Shown one piece after another: positions 26,383 through 34,908 of a DNA stretch of 43,217 nt; position 1 is the first letter of the stretch, and each line of letters starts with the position of its first letter. This DNA comes from Candidatus Siliceabacter maunaloa (GTDB taxonomy: Bacteria; Actinomycetota; Thermoleophilia; Solirubrobacterales; Solirubrobacteraceae): the NCBI GenBank assembly GCA_024330185.1, contig JANDLV010000035.1, positions 1 through 43,217 of the forward strand, in the 5' to 3' direction. The translations under genes were made by a program, and so were the position numbers. The notes under the pieces are model-generated. The model did no database searches and was not told where the DNA came from. It saw only the letters and a program-made list of their open reading frames with translations.

Positions 26383-28677
26383 TCACCCCTGCGCGCGCAT
26401 CCGCGCCAGCACCTCGAGCGCCCCGGCCTTGGCCAGCGGCTCGTTGAGGTTGCCGCACTTGGGCGACTGGATGCAGGAGGGGCAGCCGTCGGCGCAGGGG
26501 CACTCGCCGATGAGCCGCCAGGCGTCCTCGACGAGCGTCTCGAAGACCCTGAACCCCATCCGTGCGATGCCCACGCCGCCGGGATGGCCGTCGTAGACGA
26601 AGATCGTCGGGCGCAGGGTCTGGCCATGGGCGTTGGTCGACAGGCCGCCGATGTCCCACCGGTCGCACATGGCGATCAGCGGCAGCACGGCGATCTGCGC
26701 GTGCTCGACGGCGTGCAGCGCGCCCAGCAGCTCGTAGGGCGCCAGGTCGCCCACCAGCTCCTCGCCCAGCTCGAACCACAGCGCCTGGGTGGCGAACGTG
26801 GTGGGCGGGAGGTCGAGGGCCTGCAGGTCGAGCACCTCGTGGTCGGGCAGGCGCTTGCGCTGGAAGGCCGTCACCTGCTGGGTGACCTCCACCCGGCCCA
26901 GCGACAGCGTCACCCCCAGCGTCTCGCGGCGGTCGAGCAGGCGCTCGATCCACGTGTCGGTCTCCTCCTTGGGCTGGGTGTACCAGTCGCCGTCGAAGCC
27001 GGCGACGAGCGCGCGCTGGGCGTCGAGGTCCAGCTCGCGCACCTCGTAGGCCTTGCCCATGTGCAGGTAGGCGGCCCCGTCGTGGACGGTGGAGCACGCG
27101 CGCGCGCCCTCGACCGTGCCCAGCATCTCGCCGGAGTCGACGTCCACGATGGTCACCCGCTCGGGGGAGGCCGAGCGCAGCGACACCCGCGCGGCGGGGT
27201 AGTCCTGGGGGTGGCGCAGGACGAACTGCCCGCGGGTCTCGCGCAGCACGCCGTTGGAGACCAGCGCCTCGGCGTGCGCGCGCACGCGAGGACCCAGGAA
27301 CGCGGCGTCGCGCTGGGGCTCCAGCGGCCCCTCGTGCGCCGCGCACTCCAGGTGGGCCAGGTGGATCTGCTCGTTCTCGAACTCGAGGATCGCTGCCTCC
27401 ACCGGGCGGTCGAGGAACTCGTCGGGGTGGCGGCAGAAGAACTGGTCCAGCGCGTCCTCGCCGGCGACGTAGACGGCCAGGCCGCGGCCCCGGCGTCCGG
27501 CGCGGCCCCACATCTGGCGCAGGGAGGCGACGGTCCCCGGGAAGGTCACGCACACCGCGGCGTCCAGGGCGCCGATGTCGATGCCCAGCTCCAGCGCGTC
27601 GGTGGTGATGACCGCGCGCAGCTCCCCGGACACCAGCCGCGCCTCCAGCTCCCGACGCTGCTGGGGCGTGTAGCCGGCCCGGTAGGGAGCGACGGCGTCG
27701 GCCAGCTCGGGCGCCTCCTCGGTCAGCGCCATGGAGACCATCCGCGCCACCAGCTCGACGCCGCGGCGCGACTTGACGAAGCAGATGGTCCGCGCGCCGC
27801 CGACCACCAGCTCGCGCACGAGGTCGGCCGCCTCGCCCAGGGCCGAGCGCCGGGAGCCCAGGGCCTTGTCGATCAGCGGCGGGTTCCAGATGGCTATGTG
27901 TCGCCGGGAACGGGGGGCGCCGTCGCGGTCGACCAGCGCGACGTCCTCCAGGCCGGTCAGCCTCTCGGCCAGCTCGACCGGGTTGGCCACCGTCGCGCTG
28001 GCCAGCAGGAACCGCGGCGCGGTGCCGTAGGCGGCAGCGATGCGCCGCAGGCGGCGCAGCACGTTGGCCACGTGGGAGCCGAACACGCCCCGGTAGACGT
28101 GGGCCTCGTCGATCACGACCACGGCCAGGTTGGCGAACAGGTCGCCCCACGCGCCGTGGTTGGGCAGGATCCCGACGTGGAGCATGTCGGGGTTGGTCAG
28201 GATCACGTTGGCCCGCTTGCGCAGCGCACCGCGCTGCTCGCGGGGCGTGTCGCCGTCGTAGATGGCCGGGCGCACCCGCTTGGTCAGCCCCAGCGCGTTG
28301 ATGGCCCGCGCCTGGTCCTGGGCCAGCGCCTTTGTCGGGTAGAGGTACAGCGCGCGGGCGCGCGCGTCGCGCAGCAGCGTGTCCAGCGCCGGGAGGTTGA
28401 AGCACAGCGACTTGCCGCTCGCCGTCCCGGTCGTCACCACGAACGGGCCCTGGGCGGCCAGCTCGTAGGCCTGCGCCTGGTGGGCGTAGAGGCCGTCGAA
28501 GCCGGCTTGCTCCAGCGCCCCGCGCAGCTGCGGGTGCAGGTCCTGGGGTAAGCCGACGAGATCGCCCTCGCGCGCCCCCTCGTAGGCCTGACGCACCAGC
28601 CGCGCGTCGGCCCGCCCGGCCTCCAGGAGGGTGCTCCAGGGCTCGACTTCCCGCGTGACCGCCATGCCGGGCGCCAC
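26383..28677 (-). CDS. DEAD/DEAH helicase with DUF1998 domain (MrfA/YprA-like)
   Basis: 764 aa (GTG 28677; ATG 28665 also possible). Superfamily 2 motifs: Walker A GTASGKS (84-90), TNPDMLHVGILP, DEAH (190-193), LASATVANP, FVKSRRGVELVARM, TDALELGIDIG and GRAGRRGRG. The C-terminal DUF1998 region ends with a four-Cys zinc site (CPCADGCPSCIQSPKCGN). In Bacillus subtilis MrfA acts with MrfB in mitomycin-type DNA damage repair; no MrfB is adjacent here. The helicase motifs are intact. Confidence 0.92.
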   Translation of the reverse strand: MAPGMAVTREVEPWSTLLEAGRADARLVRQAYEGAREGDLVGLPQDLHPQLRGALEQAGFDGLYAHQAQAYELAAQGPFVVTTGTASGKSLCFNLPALDTLLRDARARALYLYPTKALAQDQARAINALGLTKRVRPAIYDGDTPREQRGALRKRANVILTNPDMLHVGILPNHGAWGDLFANLAVVVIDEAHVYRGVFGSHVANVLRRLRRIAAAYGTAPRFLLASATVANPVELAERLTGLEDVALVDRDGAPRSRRHIAIWNPPLIDKALGSRRSALGEAADLVRELVVGGARTICFVKSRRGVELVARMVSMALTEEAPELADAVAPYRAGYTPQQRRELEARLVSGELRAVITTDALELGIDIGALDAAVCVTFPGTVASLRQMWGRAGRRGRGLAVYVAGEDALDQFFCRHPDEFLDRPVEAAILEFENEQIHLAHLECAAHEGPLEPQRDAAFLGPRVRAHAEALVSNGVLRETRGQFVLRHPQDYPAARVSLRSASPERVTIVDVDSGEMLGTVEGARACSTVHDGAAYLHMGKAYEVRELDLDAQRALVAGFDGDWYTQPKEETDTWIERLLDRRETLGVTLSLGRVEVTQQVTAFQRKRLPDHEVLDLQALDLPPTTFATQALWFELGEELVGDLAPYELLGALHAVEHAQIAVLPLIAMCDRWDIGGLSTNAHGQTLRPTIFVYDGHPGGVGIARMGFRVFETLVEDAWRLIGECPCADGCPSCIQSPKCGNLNEPLAKAGALEVLARMRAQG

Positions 28678-31565: not shown

Positions 31566-33035
31566 CTAGAGGGTCATCGCGACGTACTTCGTCTCCAGGT
31601 ATTCGTCGATCCCCTCGTTGCCGCCCTCGCGGCCCACGCCGGACTGCTTGACGCCGCCGAAGGGCGCGCCGGCGTTGGAGACCATGCCCTGGTTGAGGCC
31701 GACCATGCCGGTCTCCAGCCGCTCGCAGACCCCGATCGCGCGCTGCAGGTTCTGCGTGTAGACGTAGGAGACCAGGCCGAACTCGGTCGCGTTGGCCGCC
31801 TGGACCGCCTCGTCGTCGCCGGCGAAGGTCTTGATCGGCGCCACCGGCCCGAAGGCCTCCTCGCGCAGGATCCGCGCCCCGTCGGCGATGTCGCCCAGCA
31901 CGGTGGGCTGGAAGAAGTAGCCGGGCCCGTCCACGCGCTCGCCGCCGGTGAGGACCAGGGCGCCCTTGCTCACGGCGTCCCGGGTGAGCTCCTCGACCAC
32001 GGCGCGCTGGTCGGCGTCGATCAGCGGGCCGACCTCGACGCCGTCCTGCGTGCCTCGGCCGACCTTCATCGCGCCCATGCGGTCGGCCAGCCGGCGCCCG
32101 AACTCCTCGGCCACCGCCTCGTGCACGTGGAAGCGGTTGGCGGCGGTGCACGCCTCGCCGGTGTTGCGCATCTTGGCGATCATCGCGCCCTGGACCGCGG
32201 CGTCGAGGTCGGCGTCCTCGAAGACCAGGAAGGGCGCGTTGCCACCCAGCTCCATGGAGACCCTGAGGACCTGCTGCGCCGACTGCTCGATGAGCGAGCG
32301 GCCGACCTCGGTCGAGCCGGTGAACGAGAGCTTCCGCGTGCGGGCATCGGTGATCAGCGGCTCCATGATCGAGCCGCTGGAGCTGGCCGTCACGACGTTC
32401 AGGACGCCGGGCGGCAGCCCGCACTCCTCGAGGATCGCCGCCAGCGCGAGCATGGTCAGCGGGGTCTGCTTCGCCGGCTTCATGACCATCGTGCAGCCCG
32501 CGGCGACGGCCGGGCCGATCTTGCGCGTGCCCATGGCCATGGGGAAGTTCCACGGGGTGATGAAGACGCACGGGCCGACGGGCTGGCGCATGACCAGCAC
32601 CCGCTGCGCCGGCGCCTTCTCGGCCACCTTGTAGCCACCTTCGATGCGGGTGGCCTCGCCGGCGAACCAGTGGAAGAAGTCCGCCGCGTAGGCGATCTCC
32701 TGCTTGGACTCGGTGATCGTCTTGCCCATCTCCAGGGTCATGAGCAGCGCCAGGTCGTCCACGCGCTCGTTGATCACCTCGTAGGCGCGGCGAAGGATCT
32801 CCCCGCGCTCGCGCGGGGCCATGGCCGCGAAATCGTCCTGCGCGCCGGCCGCGGCGCCCAGGGCGGCCCTGGCGTCGTCGGGCGTCGCGTCGGCCACCTC
32901 GGCCAGGGTCTCGCCGGTCGAGGGGTCCTCGACGCCGAGGGTCTCCCCGCCCGCGCCGTCGCGCCACTCGCCGTCGATGTACAGCTTGGGCGGCGCGTGG
33001 CGCAGCACCGCGCGCTCCTGTGATGCGACAGCCAT
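31566..33035 (-). CDS. gabD: Succinate-semialdehyde dehydrogenase-like aldehyde dehydrogenase
   Basis: 489 aa. ALDH fold with TPWNFP (N163), cofactor-binding KPAKQ (K186), SFTGSTEVGRSL, MELGGNAPF (general base E262) and GEACTAANRF (catalytic C296), then EEAFGPVAPI and PFGGVKQSGVGREGG. Length and motifs fit GabD-type enzymes oxidising succinate semialdehyde to succinate with NAD(P). A strong AGGAGG lies 8 bases before ATG. It is transcribed alone, divergent from the three-gene cassette, with no GABA transaminase adjacent, so the substrate is inferred. Confidence 0.9.
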   Translation of the reverse strand: MAVASQERAVLRHAPPKLYIDGEWRDGAGGETLGVEDPSTGETLAEVADATPDDARAALGAAAGAQDDFAAMAPRERGEILRRAYEVINERVDDLALLMTLEMGKTITESKQEIAYAADFFHWFAGEATRIEGGYKVAEKAPAQRVLVMRQPVGPCVFITPWNFPMAMGTRKIGPAVAAGCTMVMKPAKQTPLTMLALAAILEECGLPPGVLNVVTASSSGSIMEPLITDARTRKLSFTGSTEVGRSLIEQSAQQVLRVSMELGGNAPFLVFEDADLDAAVQGAMIAKMRNTGEACTAANRFHVHEAVAEEFGRRLADRMGAMKVGRGTQDGVEVGPLIDADQRAVVEELTRDAVSKGALVLTGGERVDGPGYFFQPTVLGDIADGARILREEAFGPVAPIKTFAGDDEAVQAANATEFGLVSYVYTQNLQRAIGVCERLETGMVGLNQGMVSNAGAPFGGVKQSGVGREGGNEGIDEYLETKYVAMTL

Positions 33036-33141
33036 GGGACGGACCTCCTAGCGAGACAAAGCTTGAGCGGTGCGTTCCCCGCGCCGCGGCAGCCGAAAAC
33101 CCATCCGAGACAGTACGGTGCGGTTACGCTCCCCATCGCGT

Positions 33142-33975
33142 ATGGAACCCGCTATCGAGACCATCGTCGAGTTCGAGCGACCGCCGGTGATCGAGGTGGT
33201 GTTCGGTACGCAGTTCGGCGCCGCGATCGTCGATCTCGAGGTGCTTGCCGAGTTCGCCAGGTCGGTCCGCGGGGAGTTCCCCCGCCGCGAGCAGATCGAG
33301 CCGCTTCCGAGGGCCTTCGAGTCCTTCGATCATCCGCCGGCCGGAACTCACATCGAGTTTCGCTTCGGAGGGGCACCGCTGCCCCGCACGCGGTTCATCA
33401 GCACGGACGAGCAGACCCTTCTCCAACTGCAGGCCGACCGCTTCCTCTTCAACTGGCGTCGTGTCAGCGCTGACGATGCATACCCACGTTACGAGACGCT
33501 GCGCCCTCGCTTTGATGCCCTCCGCCAGCGCTTGATTGAGGTACTCGACGGACTTGGCCGACCAACGCCGGTGGTCGACCACGTTGAGGTGAGCTACATC
33601 AACGAGCTGAGCTTCCCAGGCCACCCGAGCGCCCGAACCCATGCTTCGTTGTCCGCTCTTGTGTCGACGGTTTCCGACCTACCTCGAGGTGGGTTTCTAT
33701 CTGAGCCAGAAGACGTCGGATACTCAGCCCGGTTCCGCATACCCCGCGCCGACGGCACCGGTCCGATGGGTCGGCTCATAGCCAGGACGGAGCCGGCATA
33801 TCGCTCTGCGGACGGGCGTCCCATCCACCTGCTGACACTTACCGCGAATCTCGTTGGTAGCTTTGCGAGCGACACGGCGGTCATCGATGCGCTCGATCTG
33901 GGTCGTCGCTGGGTCGTGAACGGCTTCCTCGAGATGACCACCCCCGAGCTCCACGCCAACTGGAGACGACTATGA
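33142..33975 (+). CDS. TIGR04255 family protein
   Basis: 277 aa from ATG 33142. The signature FERPPVIEVVFGTQF (11-25) is the conserved N-terminus of TIGR04255, a sporadically distributed family of unknown function. Further conserved features are LQLQADRFLFNWRRVSADDAYPRYE and VDHVEVSYINELSFPG, then a C-terminal alpha/beta half. No signal peptide or membrane helix. No ribosome site is evident, and a TACGGT at 33114 could give a very short leader. It overlaps the next gene by ATGA. Base composition is lower in GC than the flanking metabolic genes. Confidence 0.85.
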   Translation: MEPAIETIVEFERPPVIEVVFGTQFGAAIVDLEVLAEFARSVRGEFPRREQIEPLPRAFESFDHPPAGTHIEFRFGGAPLPRTRFISTDEQTLLQLQADRFLFNWRRVSADDAYPRYETLRPRFDALRQRLIEVLDGLGRPTPVVDHVEVSYINELSFPGHPSARTHASLSALVSTVSDLPRGGFLSEPEDVGYSARFRIPRADGTGPMGRLIARTEPAYRSADGRPIHLLTLTANLVGSFASDTAVIDALDLGRRWVVNGFLEMTTPELHANWRRL

Positions 33976-34457
33976 CCTTGCTACTCCCGGAGCCCACGAC
34001 CACGCCGACCATCGCTGCGGGGACGATGCGCCACAAGGCCTCGAGTCCGGCCTCCAGCCCCTACATCGCGACGTCGCGACGCATCTTGATCGAGGCGGAG
34101 ATCGCACCGCCGTGGATCGCCGCCGTGGAGCGCCGGATCAACGAACTGCTCTTGTTACCGCCCGGATGGGACACCTACGGTGCGCAGCCAATCACCGTAG
34201 AGAACGTGCTTCTGGCACTGAGCCTGCTCGAAAGGCTGGTCGACCTGGACTCCCCGGCGCCGATCATCGTTCCTACGGTGGCTGGTGGCATCCAGATGGA
34301 GTGGGAGTTCGATCGCACTGCGGTTGAGGTTCGTGTCGATGAAGGGGGCGCTTGGTTCTTCGTTGGCGATGACTCGGGTGAGCACGAAGGCCCGGCCAGC
34401 GCGGACCTCTCCGCCCGAGCCGCACGCGTGATAGCTGCGGTGCCGTACTCGACGTGA
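33972..34457 (+). CDS. Hypothetical protein, second gene of the TIGR04255 cassette
   Basis: 161 aa. A variable N-terminus (about 1-40) is followed by RRINELLLLPPGWDTYGAQPITVENVLLALSLLERLV, a helix-turn segment with a conserved-looking WDTYGA motif (about 66-71). Then come beta strands PAPIIVPTVAGGIQMEWEFDRTAVEVRVDEGGAWFFVG. Proteins with WDxYGAxP plus GGxQxEW are, from memory, repeatedly found beside TIGR04255 genes. ATGA overlap upstream and GTGA overlap downstream show strict co-translation. Cytoplasmic; no enzyme motif. Confidence 0.75.
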   Translation: MTLLLPEPTTTPTIAAGTMRHKASSPASSPYIATSRRILIEAEIAPPWIAAVERRINELLLLPPGWDTYGAQPITVENVLLALSLLERLVDLDSPAPIIVPTVAGGIQMEWEFDRTAVEVRVDEGGAWFFVGDDSGEHEGPASADLSARAARVIAAVPYST

Positions 34458-34864
34458 ATGCCGAGCCCGGGGCGCCGGATCCGATCGGTGACGACGTTCG
34501 GCTGTTTCGCCGGATCACCCAGCACCATCTCGTCGACGCGCCGTCCGAACCGCTGGGCAAGCGCATCTCGAGCGCCGCGTTCCAACCTTCGAGCGCCGAC
34601 GAAGGCATCTCTGTCTCGCTCGAGGACACTATGGATGAGCTCGGCATCACTTCAACAGACCTCATGACTCTCGCACCCCCCTCGATCGGGCTGAGCTTCG
34701 TCACTGCCCGACAGGTCCGGGCACCGCCGGTCGGCAAGGACGTCGAGCGCGCGCCTACAGGCGATGATCCTTCGCACGGCAACATCGTGGGACCCGACTC
34801 CACAGCAAGGCGGAGGCACCTCGCCCGGTTAGCACAGGTGCAGTGGGTGATCGAGCCGACCTGA
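34454..34864 (+). CDS. Hypothetical protein, third gene of the TIGR04255 cassette
   Basis: 136 aa, GTG start in a GTGA overlap (the nearby ATG 34458 is in a wrong frame). DDVRLFRRITQHHLVDA, then KRISSAAFQPSSADEGISVSLEDTM, then a C-terminal THxx-like block DPSHGNIVGPDSTARRRHLARLAQVQWVI. The pattern LxRRI...SSxAF...(M/I)SVxL...PxHxxVxG is one I recall from small uncharacterised proteins in phage-defence-like or mobile settings. No catalytic motif is certain; the conserved His and Ser/Arg residues would be worth aligning. It ends 44 bases before the convergent acetolactate synthase. Confidence 0.7.
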   Translation: MNAEPGAPDPIGDDVRLFRRITQHHLVDAPSEPLGKRISSAAFQPSSADEGISVSLEDTMDELGITSTDLMTLAPPSIGLSFVTARQVRAPPVGKDVERAPTGDDPSHGNIVGPDSTARRRHLARLAQVQWVIEPT

Positions 34865-34908
34865 GAGCTGACGCCCAGTTCACCCCGGGGGATCGGCCCT
34901 CGTCGCGC

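Follow-up and report, generated by a model that had tools for sequence, protein, structure and literature searches.

The window, a 43,217-nucleotide stretch of DNA, contains a block of three small genes that is a TIGR04255-bearing relative of PDC-M32, itself still a candidate system. We put the chances at about even that this block is a horizontally acquired tripartite ADP-ribosyltransferase (ART) toxin-antitoxin or abortive-infection module: gene 3 would be the effector, gene 2 its keeper, and gene 1 the sensor. A conflict system is suggested because a constant pair (genes 2 and 3) is combined with a swappable third partner, the predicted effector has an ART-like fold, and the sister system lies within restriction operons and next to prophage repressors. 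New here are the predicted ART-like fold of gene 3, with its Arg/Ser/His residues, and the finding that genes 2 and 3 have homologues in PDC-M32.

All three genes are on the plus strand. Gene 1 (33142..33975, 277 aa) belongs to a module-linked sub-type of TIGR04255, has a predicted duplicated alpha/beta sheet fold, and is predicted to fill a sensor/regulator slot. Gene 2 (33972..34457, 161 aa) encodes a WDxYGA/GGxQxEW domain, is the constant partner of gene 3, and is predicted to be an inhibitor or adaptor. Gene 3 (34454..34864, 136 aa), with conserved R19, S53, and H108, is the predicted ART-like effector. The stop of gene 1 and the start of gene 2 share an ATGA overlap (33972..33975, +), and the stop of gene 2 and the start of gene 3 share a GTGA overlap (34454..34457, +). 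Coordinates, strand, and both four-base overlaps agree exactly with those given in an earlier note on this DNA, and the block does lie, as described there, between minus-strand gabD-like and alsS-like ORFs. The motifs named in that note were also located: WDTYGA and GGIQMEW in gene 2, and SSAAF, ISV, and DPSHGNIVG in gene 3. Genes 2 and 3 had no Pfam or NCBIfam match and no named PHROG match, and a scan of the block for promoters and terminators found none.

An alignment of gene 2 was scanned against one genome per species (84,980 species) and returned 48 loci. Using iterated profiles, TIGR04255 and gene 3 were found to adjoin gene 2, in the same order and with the same orientation, at 31 of these 48, a proportion that is not an unbiased frequency because TIGR04255-linked gene 2 sequences served as the seed. 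Nine further loci have gene 3 without TIGR04255, which brings gene 3 beside gene 2 to 40 of 48; at one locus gene 1 is present and the contig ends, and at seven neither gene 1 nor gene 3 was detected. Full triads occur in at least 10 phyla (Pseudomonadota, Planctomycetota, Acidobacteriota, Actinomycetota, Chloroflexota, Myxococcota, Thermodesulfobacteriota, Bacteroidota, and two candidate phyla). The companion protein types that the earlier note mentioned from other genomes are real, with the same trio standing in tandem across distant phyla. The genes are packed as tightly as in an operon: a start is possible within 60 bases of the preceding stop at all gene 1-gene 2 junctions and at 67 of 68 gene 2-gene 3 junctions, in a list that includes some duplicate loci and the decayed locus L003. 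Pairwise distances of the three genes are correlated across 26 loci (Spearman 0.54–0.55, with 0 of 2,000 permutations as high), a correlation that partly reflects shared species history.

The block is an insertion, and relatives carry the empty site. In a same-genus genome with an alsS gene 89% identical to that of the window, only 40 bp separate the regions of alsS and gabD homology. The gap is ~107 and ~190 bp in two same-family genomes and ~1.9 kb in the window. Flank spacing in these relatives gives an inserted segment of approximately 32990..34899 (no strand assigned), of which the left edge enters the divergent 5' end of gabD, so that the true boundary may be nearer 33035. The composition of the block is foreign by GC3, at 0.74 for gene 1, 0.79 for gene 2, and 0.77 for gene 3, compared to 0.98 for both flanking genes; the less extreme GC usage reported earlier is thus correct and the difference is strong. 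A search of the insertion for flanking direct repeats or att sites found only short repeats of chance size.

TIGR04255 occurs once in the window's own genome. Gene 2 was matched in five of 101 genomes searched, including that of the window. Three of the other four carry the entire triad (L004–L006), and the fourth (G062) has a decayed copy (L003) as well as another gene 2 (L007) that comes after a large ORF unrelated to the module. In the decayed copy (L003:779-2231), from a genome of the same order, gene 1 is reduced to a short remnant, gene 2 is intact, and gene 3 is frameshifted; an AAA-type ATPase-like ORF adjoins it. ORFs that read as tyrosine integrases adjoin the module at L004, L125, L126, and L127, and in the wider locus set three of 140 genes close to the module matched Pfam Phage_integrase. 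Genes 2 and 3 of the window had no match among plasmids; of two further queries, one gave a single distant gene-2 match on an Acetobacter plasmid and the other gave none. Because gene order is conserved in at least 10 phyla, empty sites exist, the composition is foreign, and integrases lie beside some actinobacterial copies, the data support the proposal that the three genes form a single module, which is inherited and moves between genomes as a whole.

Profile searches indicate that genes 2 and 3 are homologous to PDC-M32, gene 2 to the C-terminus of M32A and gene 3 to M32B. Gene 2 matched PADLOC PDC-M32A over profile positions 261-335 of 375 (E 3.6e-11), and profile-profile comparison aligned it to the M32A C-terminus (E 3.8e-10) and gene 3 to M32B (probability 88.6, E 2.7e-6). 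The window's own gene 3 had no direct match to the PDC-M32B models. M32A, of ~375 aa, joins an N-terminal domain to a WDxxG-type C-terminal domain. Gene order is the same in the two systems and spacing is equally tight, but the ~250-residue N-terminal domain of M32A is missing here and a separate TIGR04255 gene is present instead; TIGR04255 had no similarity to the M32A N-terminus by profile comparison. Identification of the block as PDC-M32 itself was rejected, given the absent N-terminal domain and the lack of an M32B model match. Within gene 2, W66 is invariant, and D67, P73, and W111 are conserved in more than 90% of sequences.

A sample of 398 genomes from the phylum of a Pseudomonas contained full-length M32A in five. 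At L132, M32A-M32B and a PDC-S05 gene lie between the type I methyltransferase HsdM (E 1.9e-177) and the specificity subunit HsdS, and L133, L134, and L136 resemble this locus over the extent of DNA compared. On IMG/VR contigs (L174–L176, L180, and L182), M32A-M32B follows a repressor-like HTH gene. The slot after a prophage repressor is the location of many prophage-encoded exclusion genes. PDC-M32 has been reported in Sinorhizobium prophages (PMC12429752).

The gene-1 slot is exchangeable. Besides TIGR04255, its occupants include a DUF6941-like protein, a HEPN protein of the DUF4209 family, and the M32A N-terminus. The DUF6941-like protein occupies the slot at L030, with a match (E 4.6e-4) that falls short of the curated cut-off. 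In three Hymenobacter loci (L055, L077, and L083), the gene immediately upstream of the gene 2-gene 3 pair encodes a protein with an RNRVAHG HEPN-type motif; the one tested, from L055, matched DUF4209 (E 2.5e-9) and also PDC-S39. DUF4209 is a HEPN family (PMC3710099). The arrangement of gene 2 domain, gene 3, and nucleotidyltransferase (MNT-like, PDC-S09) was observed at both L138:1082-2826 and L141:1399-3131; in L138 the gene 2 domain is part of a fusion with repeats, and at L141 a HEPN-like gene also comes after the nucleotidyltransferase. A reading of gene 1 in L057 and L060 as a divergent TIGR04255 found no support, because the protein has no profile similarity to that family; the head of M32A is likewise absent from both loci by profile comparison. 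Four unexplained families (TIGR04255, DUF6941-like, DUF4209-HEPN, and PDC-M32A) are thereby joined through one companion pair.

A compact operon of foreign composition, sporadic in distribution and missing from its site in relatives, would also be expected of a selfish toxin-antitoxin or addiction module with no part in anti-phage defence. Such a module would maintain the inserted segment, with gene 3 as its toxin, gene 2 as its antitoxin, and gene 1 as a folding or stability factor. Adjoining genes are mostly ordinary, as such a module would allow. We regard this explanation as unlikely, given that the homologous pair lies within type I restriction operons and next to prophage repressors, and that the replacement of gene 1 by a HEPN-type protein suggests triggers rather than plain addiction.

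A structural model of gene 3 was built with AlphaFold2 from 48 sequences (pLDDT 91.3, pTM 0.84). The top four matches of this model to the PDB in Foldseek were ART-fold proteins, although these matches were weak (best E 0.1). With VIA-align, the first 23 rows were all ART-fold proteins from several families, led by Tpt1/KptA (Z 7.7), CC0527 (Z 6.4), TreTu (Z 5.6), and DarT (Z 5.1), with RES, ParT, and PARPs lower down (Z about 2.4–3.4). The best of these values falls below VIA-align's own safe level of Z 8, and one such score alone would not suffice; the predicted ART-like fold is convincing because many different ART families agree. A named RNA 2'-phosphotransferase among the viral structure matches of gene 3 agrees with this fold.

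Tpt1/KptA is the closest solved fold to gene 3, with 91-97 residues aligned, but gene 3 covers only the C-terminal half of Tpt1 (approximately residues 84-184) and showed no sequence similarity to it in the PDB search. This best match, together with a sporadic distribution that suits a stress or repair island, would suit a Tpt1/KptA-like RNA- or nucleotide-processing enzyme rather than a toxin, in a module that mends or remodels RNA ends after stress or phage-induced cleavage and in which genes 1 and 2 recruit the substrate. Such a role seems quite unlikely: reading the loci by eye turned up no RNA ligase, 2H, or RtcB partner, the close gene 2-gene 3 pairing and strong divergence resemble a conflict system more, and the prophage-repressor and restriction-operon sites fit defence better.

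Among the 48 gene 3 sequences, R19 is conserved in 93%, and S53 and H108 in 100%. The equivalent residues R36, S67, and H123 are invariant in 11 divergent relatives, a set that is four short of independent and in which some loci are close kin. Catalytic motifs of ARTs are R-S-E or H-Y-E, and ARTs with variant motifs, including ones without the acidic residue, exist (PMC8883491). Across the 59 relatives of gene 3 there is no conserved Glu, and neither the R-S-E nor the H-Y-E motif is present. By position, R19 and S53 probably correspond to the first two residues of the R-S-E motif, and H108 would stand in the place of the Glu. The missing Glu makes transferase activity less certain and leaves the certainty of the fold unaffected.

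The identification of gene 1 as TIGR04255 was confirmed by a match over profile positions 2-251 of 252 at 60.9 bits, above the NCBIfam cut-off of 30. Most members of the family sampled in the phylum are solitary, unlike gene 1. TIGR04255 is carried by 26 of 296 genomes of the window's phylum, and only low-scoring copies (55–73 bits; the window, L124–L127, and L129) are flanked by genes 2 and 3. Those scoring above 97 bits in the same phylum sample have no gene 2 or gene 3 adjoining. A quick tree placed gene 1 of the window in a 32-row set (SH-aLRT 95) in which 31 rows are module-linked. Several solo rows in this tree are automatically chosen ORFs, and two of them (L110 and L114) look like wrong frames on long branches and fall outside the clade that holds the window's gene 1. 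Module-linked TIGR04255 is a sub-type, because ordinary TIGR04255 genes mostly stand without partners. The earlier description of TIGR04255 as widespread accordingly needs narrowing: the module triad is found in many phyla, but most sampled members in the phylum are without genes 2 and 3. At L123:509-1447 (G504), a gene 1 from within the module-linked clade has other genes downstream, which indicates that a module can lose genes 2 and 3 or have others in their place. Our literature search found no paper mentioning TIGR04255, a curated family without a known role, of which one sub-type now has a partner set and a proposed mechanism.

The single-protein structure prediction called for earlier gave an ART-like fold for gene 3 and, for gene 1, a fold of the phosphagen kinase and S-adenosylmethionine decarboxylase (AdoMetDC) type without the catalytic residues of those enzymes. 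The AlphaFold2 model of gene 1 is a duplicated alpha/beta sheet (pLDDT 93.0) nearest to phosphagen kinases (Z 9.0) and AdoMetDC. Its conserved residues are Y152, Y114, P15, Q95, E18, F262, and N154, among which there is no Arg cluster and there are no catalytic arginines. A phosphagen (guanidino) kinase was rejected despite the fold match, as the arginine-rich ATP-binding site is absent. A kinase- or AdoMetDC-like fold without conserved catalytic arginines suggests that gene 1 would act by binding and not by catalysis. A non-enzymatic regulatory or structural complex, with the ART fold of gene 3 as a binding scaffold and gene 1 as a metabolic ligand sensor, would suit both this resemblance and the missing Glu of gene 3, but is improbable because the invariance of S53 and H108 and the 93% conservation of R19, across very divergent sequences and several gene-1 contexts, are hard to account for without an active site.

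Several known systems were compared to the block. The nearest worked-out parallel, by analogy and not as a demonstrated relative, is CmdTAC, an ART toxin-antitoxin-chaperone anti-phage system (PMC11618068). Both consist of three adjacent small genes, one with an ART fold and a third whose protein is possibly a sensor. CmdT has an H-Y-[E,D,Q] motif (PMC11618068), whereas gene 3 has R/S/H, and the block here starts with the putative sensor gene and ends with the ART gene. No SecB-like chaperone was among the fold matches listed for gene 1, and the PDB sequence search returned no match for genes 1, 2, or 3. DarTG, RES-Xre, and ParST also pair a small ART-fold protein with an adjoining partner gene, and DarT, RES, and ParT are all in the fold list of gene 3; they differ in that the partner here, gene 2, has no match among named Pfam or NCBIfam families and that a third gene is present.

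As a check of its claim, the earlier note had named conserved co-occurrence near defence genes. Conserved order in distant phyla and the single module stand; a defence neighbourhood is less evident, as PADLOC families show no clear enrichment in nearby genes. At E 1e-10, these families numbered 43 in 140 genes beside TIGR04255-type modules and 30 in 140 genes further away on the same contigs, a handful of proteins each. Backing for a defence role is indirect and comes from the location of the homologous PDC-M32 pair and from the predicted ART-like fold of gene 3. For the tripartite ART module proposed above, we infer that gene 3 would be an active and toxic enzyme, that gene 2 would inhibit it, that gene 1 would be a sensor, and that the whole would act against phage. 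The ART-fold effector would use NAD+ to modify a cellular target, or consume NAD+; gene 2, its dedicated partner, would keep it inactive or present it; and the swappable sensor or regulator, here TIGR04255, would detect phage or stress and free the effector. This proposal is weakened by neighbours that are not clearly defence-enriched, the missing Glu, a best Z (7.7) below 8, a best Foldseek E of 0.1, and the lack of a direct M32B match.

More tentatively, and with the odds against it, genes 2 and 3 may be a general immune cassette, in which a new-clade ART effector with Arg-Ser-His replacing Arg-Ser-Glu and its dedicated inhibitor are combined with varied sensors, and lone phage gene-2-like proteins act as decoy antitoxins. 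The sensors would be TIGR04255, DUF6941-like, DUF4209-HEPN, TPR-like repeats, and, inside type I restriction operons, the M32A head. If right, a modular NAD-dependent arm would be added to bacterial immunity, and the presence of PDC-M32 within restriction operons and next to prophage repressors would be accounted for.

A gene-2-like WDxYGA domain, often of ~90 aa, was observed without gene 1 or gene 3 alongside in 23 of 29 IMG/VR viral-contig loci (L008, L011–L018, L020, L021, L023–L029, and L031–L035), several of them beside phage-like genes. These lone viral proteins are possible decoy antitoxins. Two gene-2 relatives searched against sequenced phage records had no match. On the Acetobacter persici plasmid pAC1084_1 (L142:5944-7249), a 297-aa protein has two tandem gene-2-like domains and is followed by an ORF annotated as the ClpXP adaptor SspB, with a second SspB-annotated ORF upstream. 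Elsewhere in the window, a large minus-strand ORF (26386-28677) reads like a putative DEAD/DEAH-box helicase.
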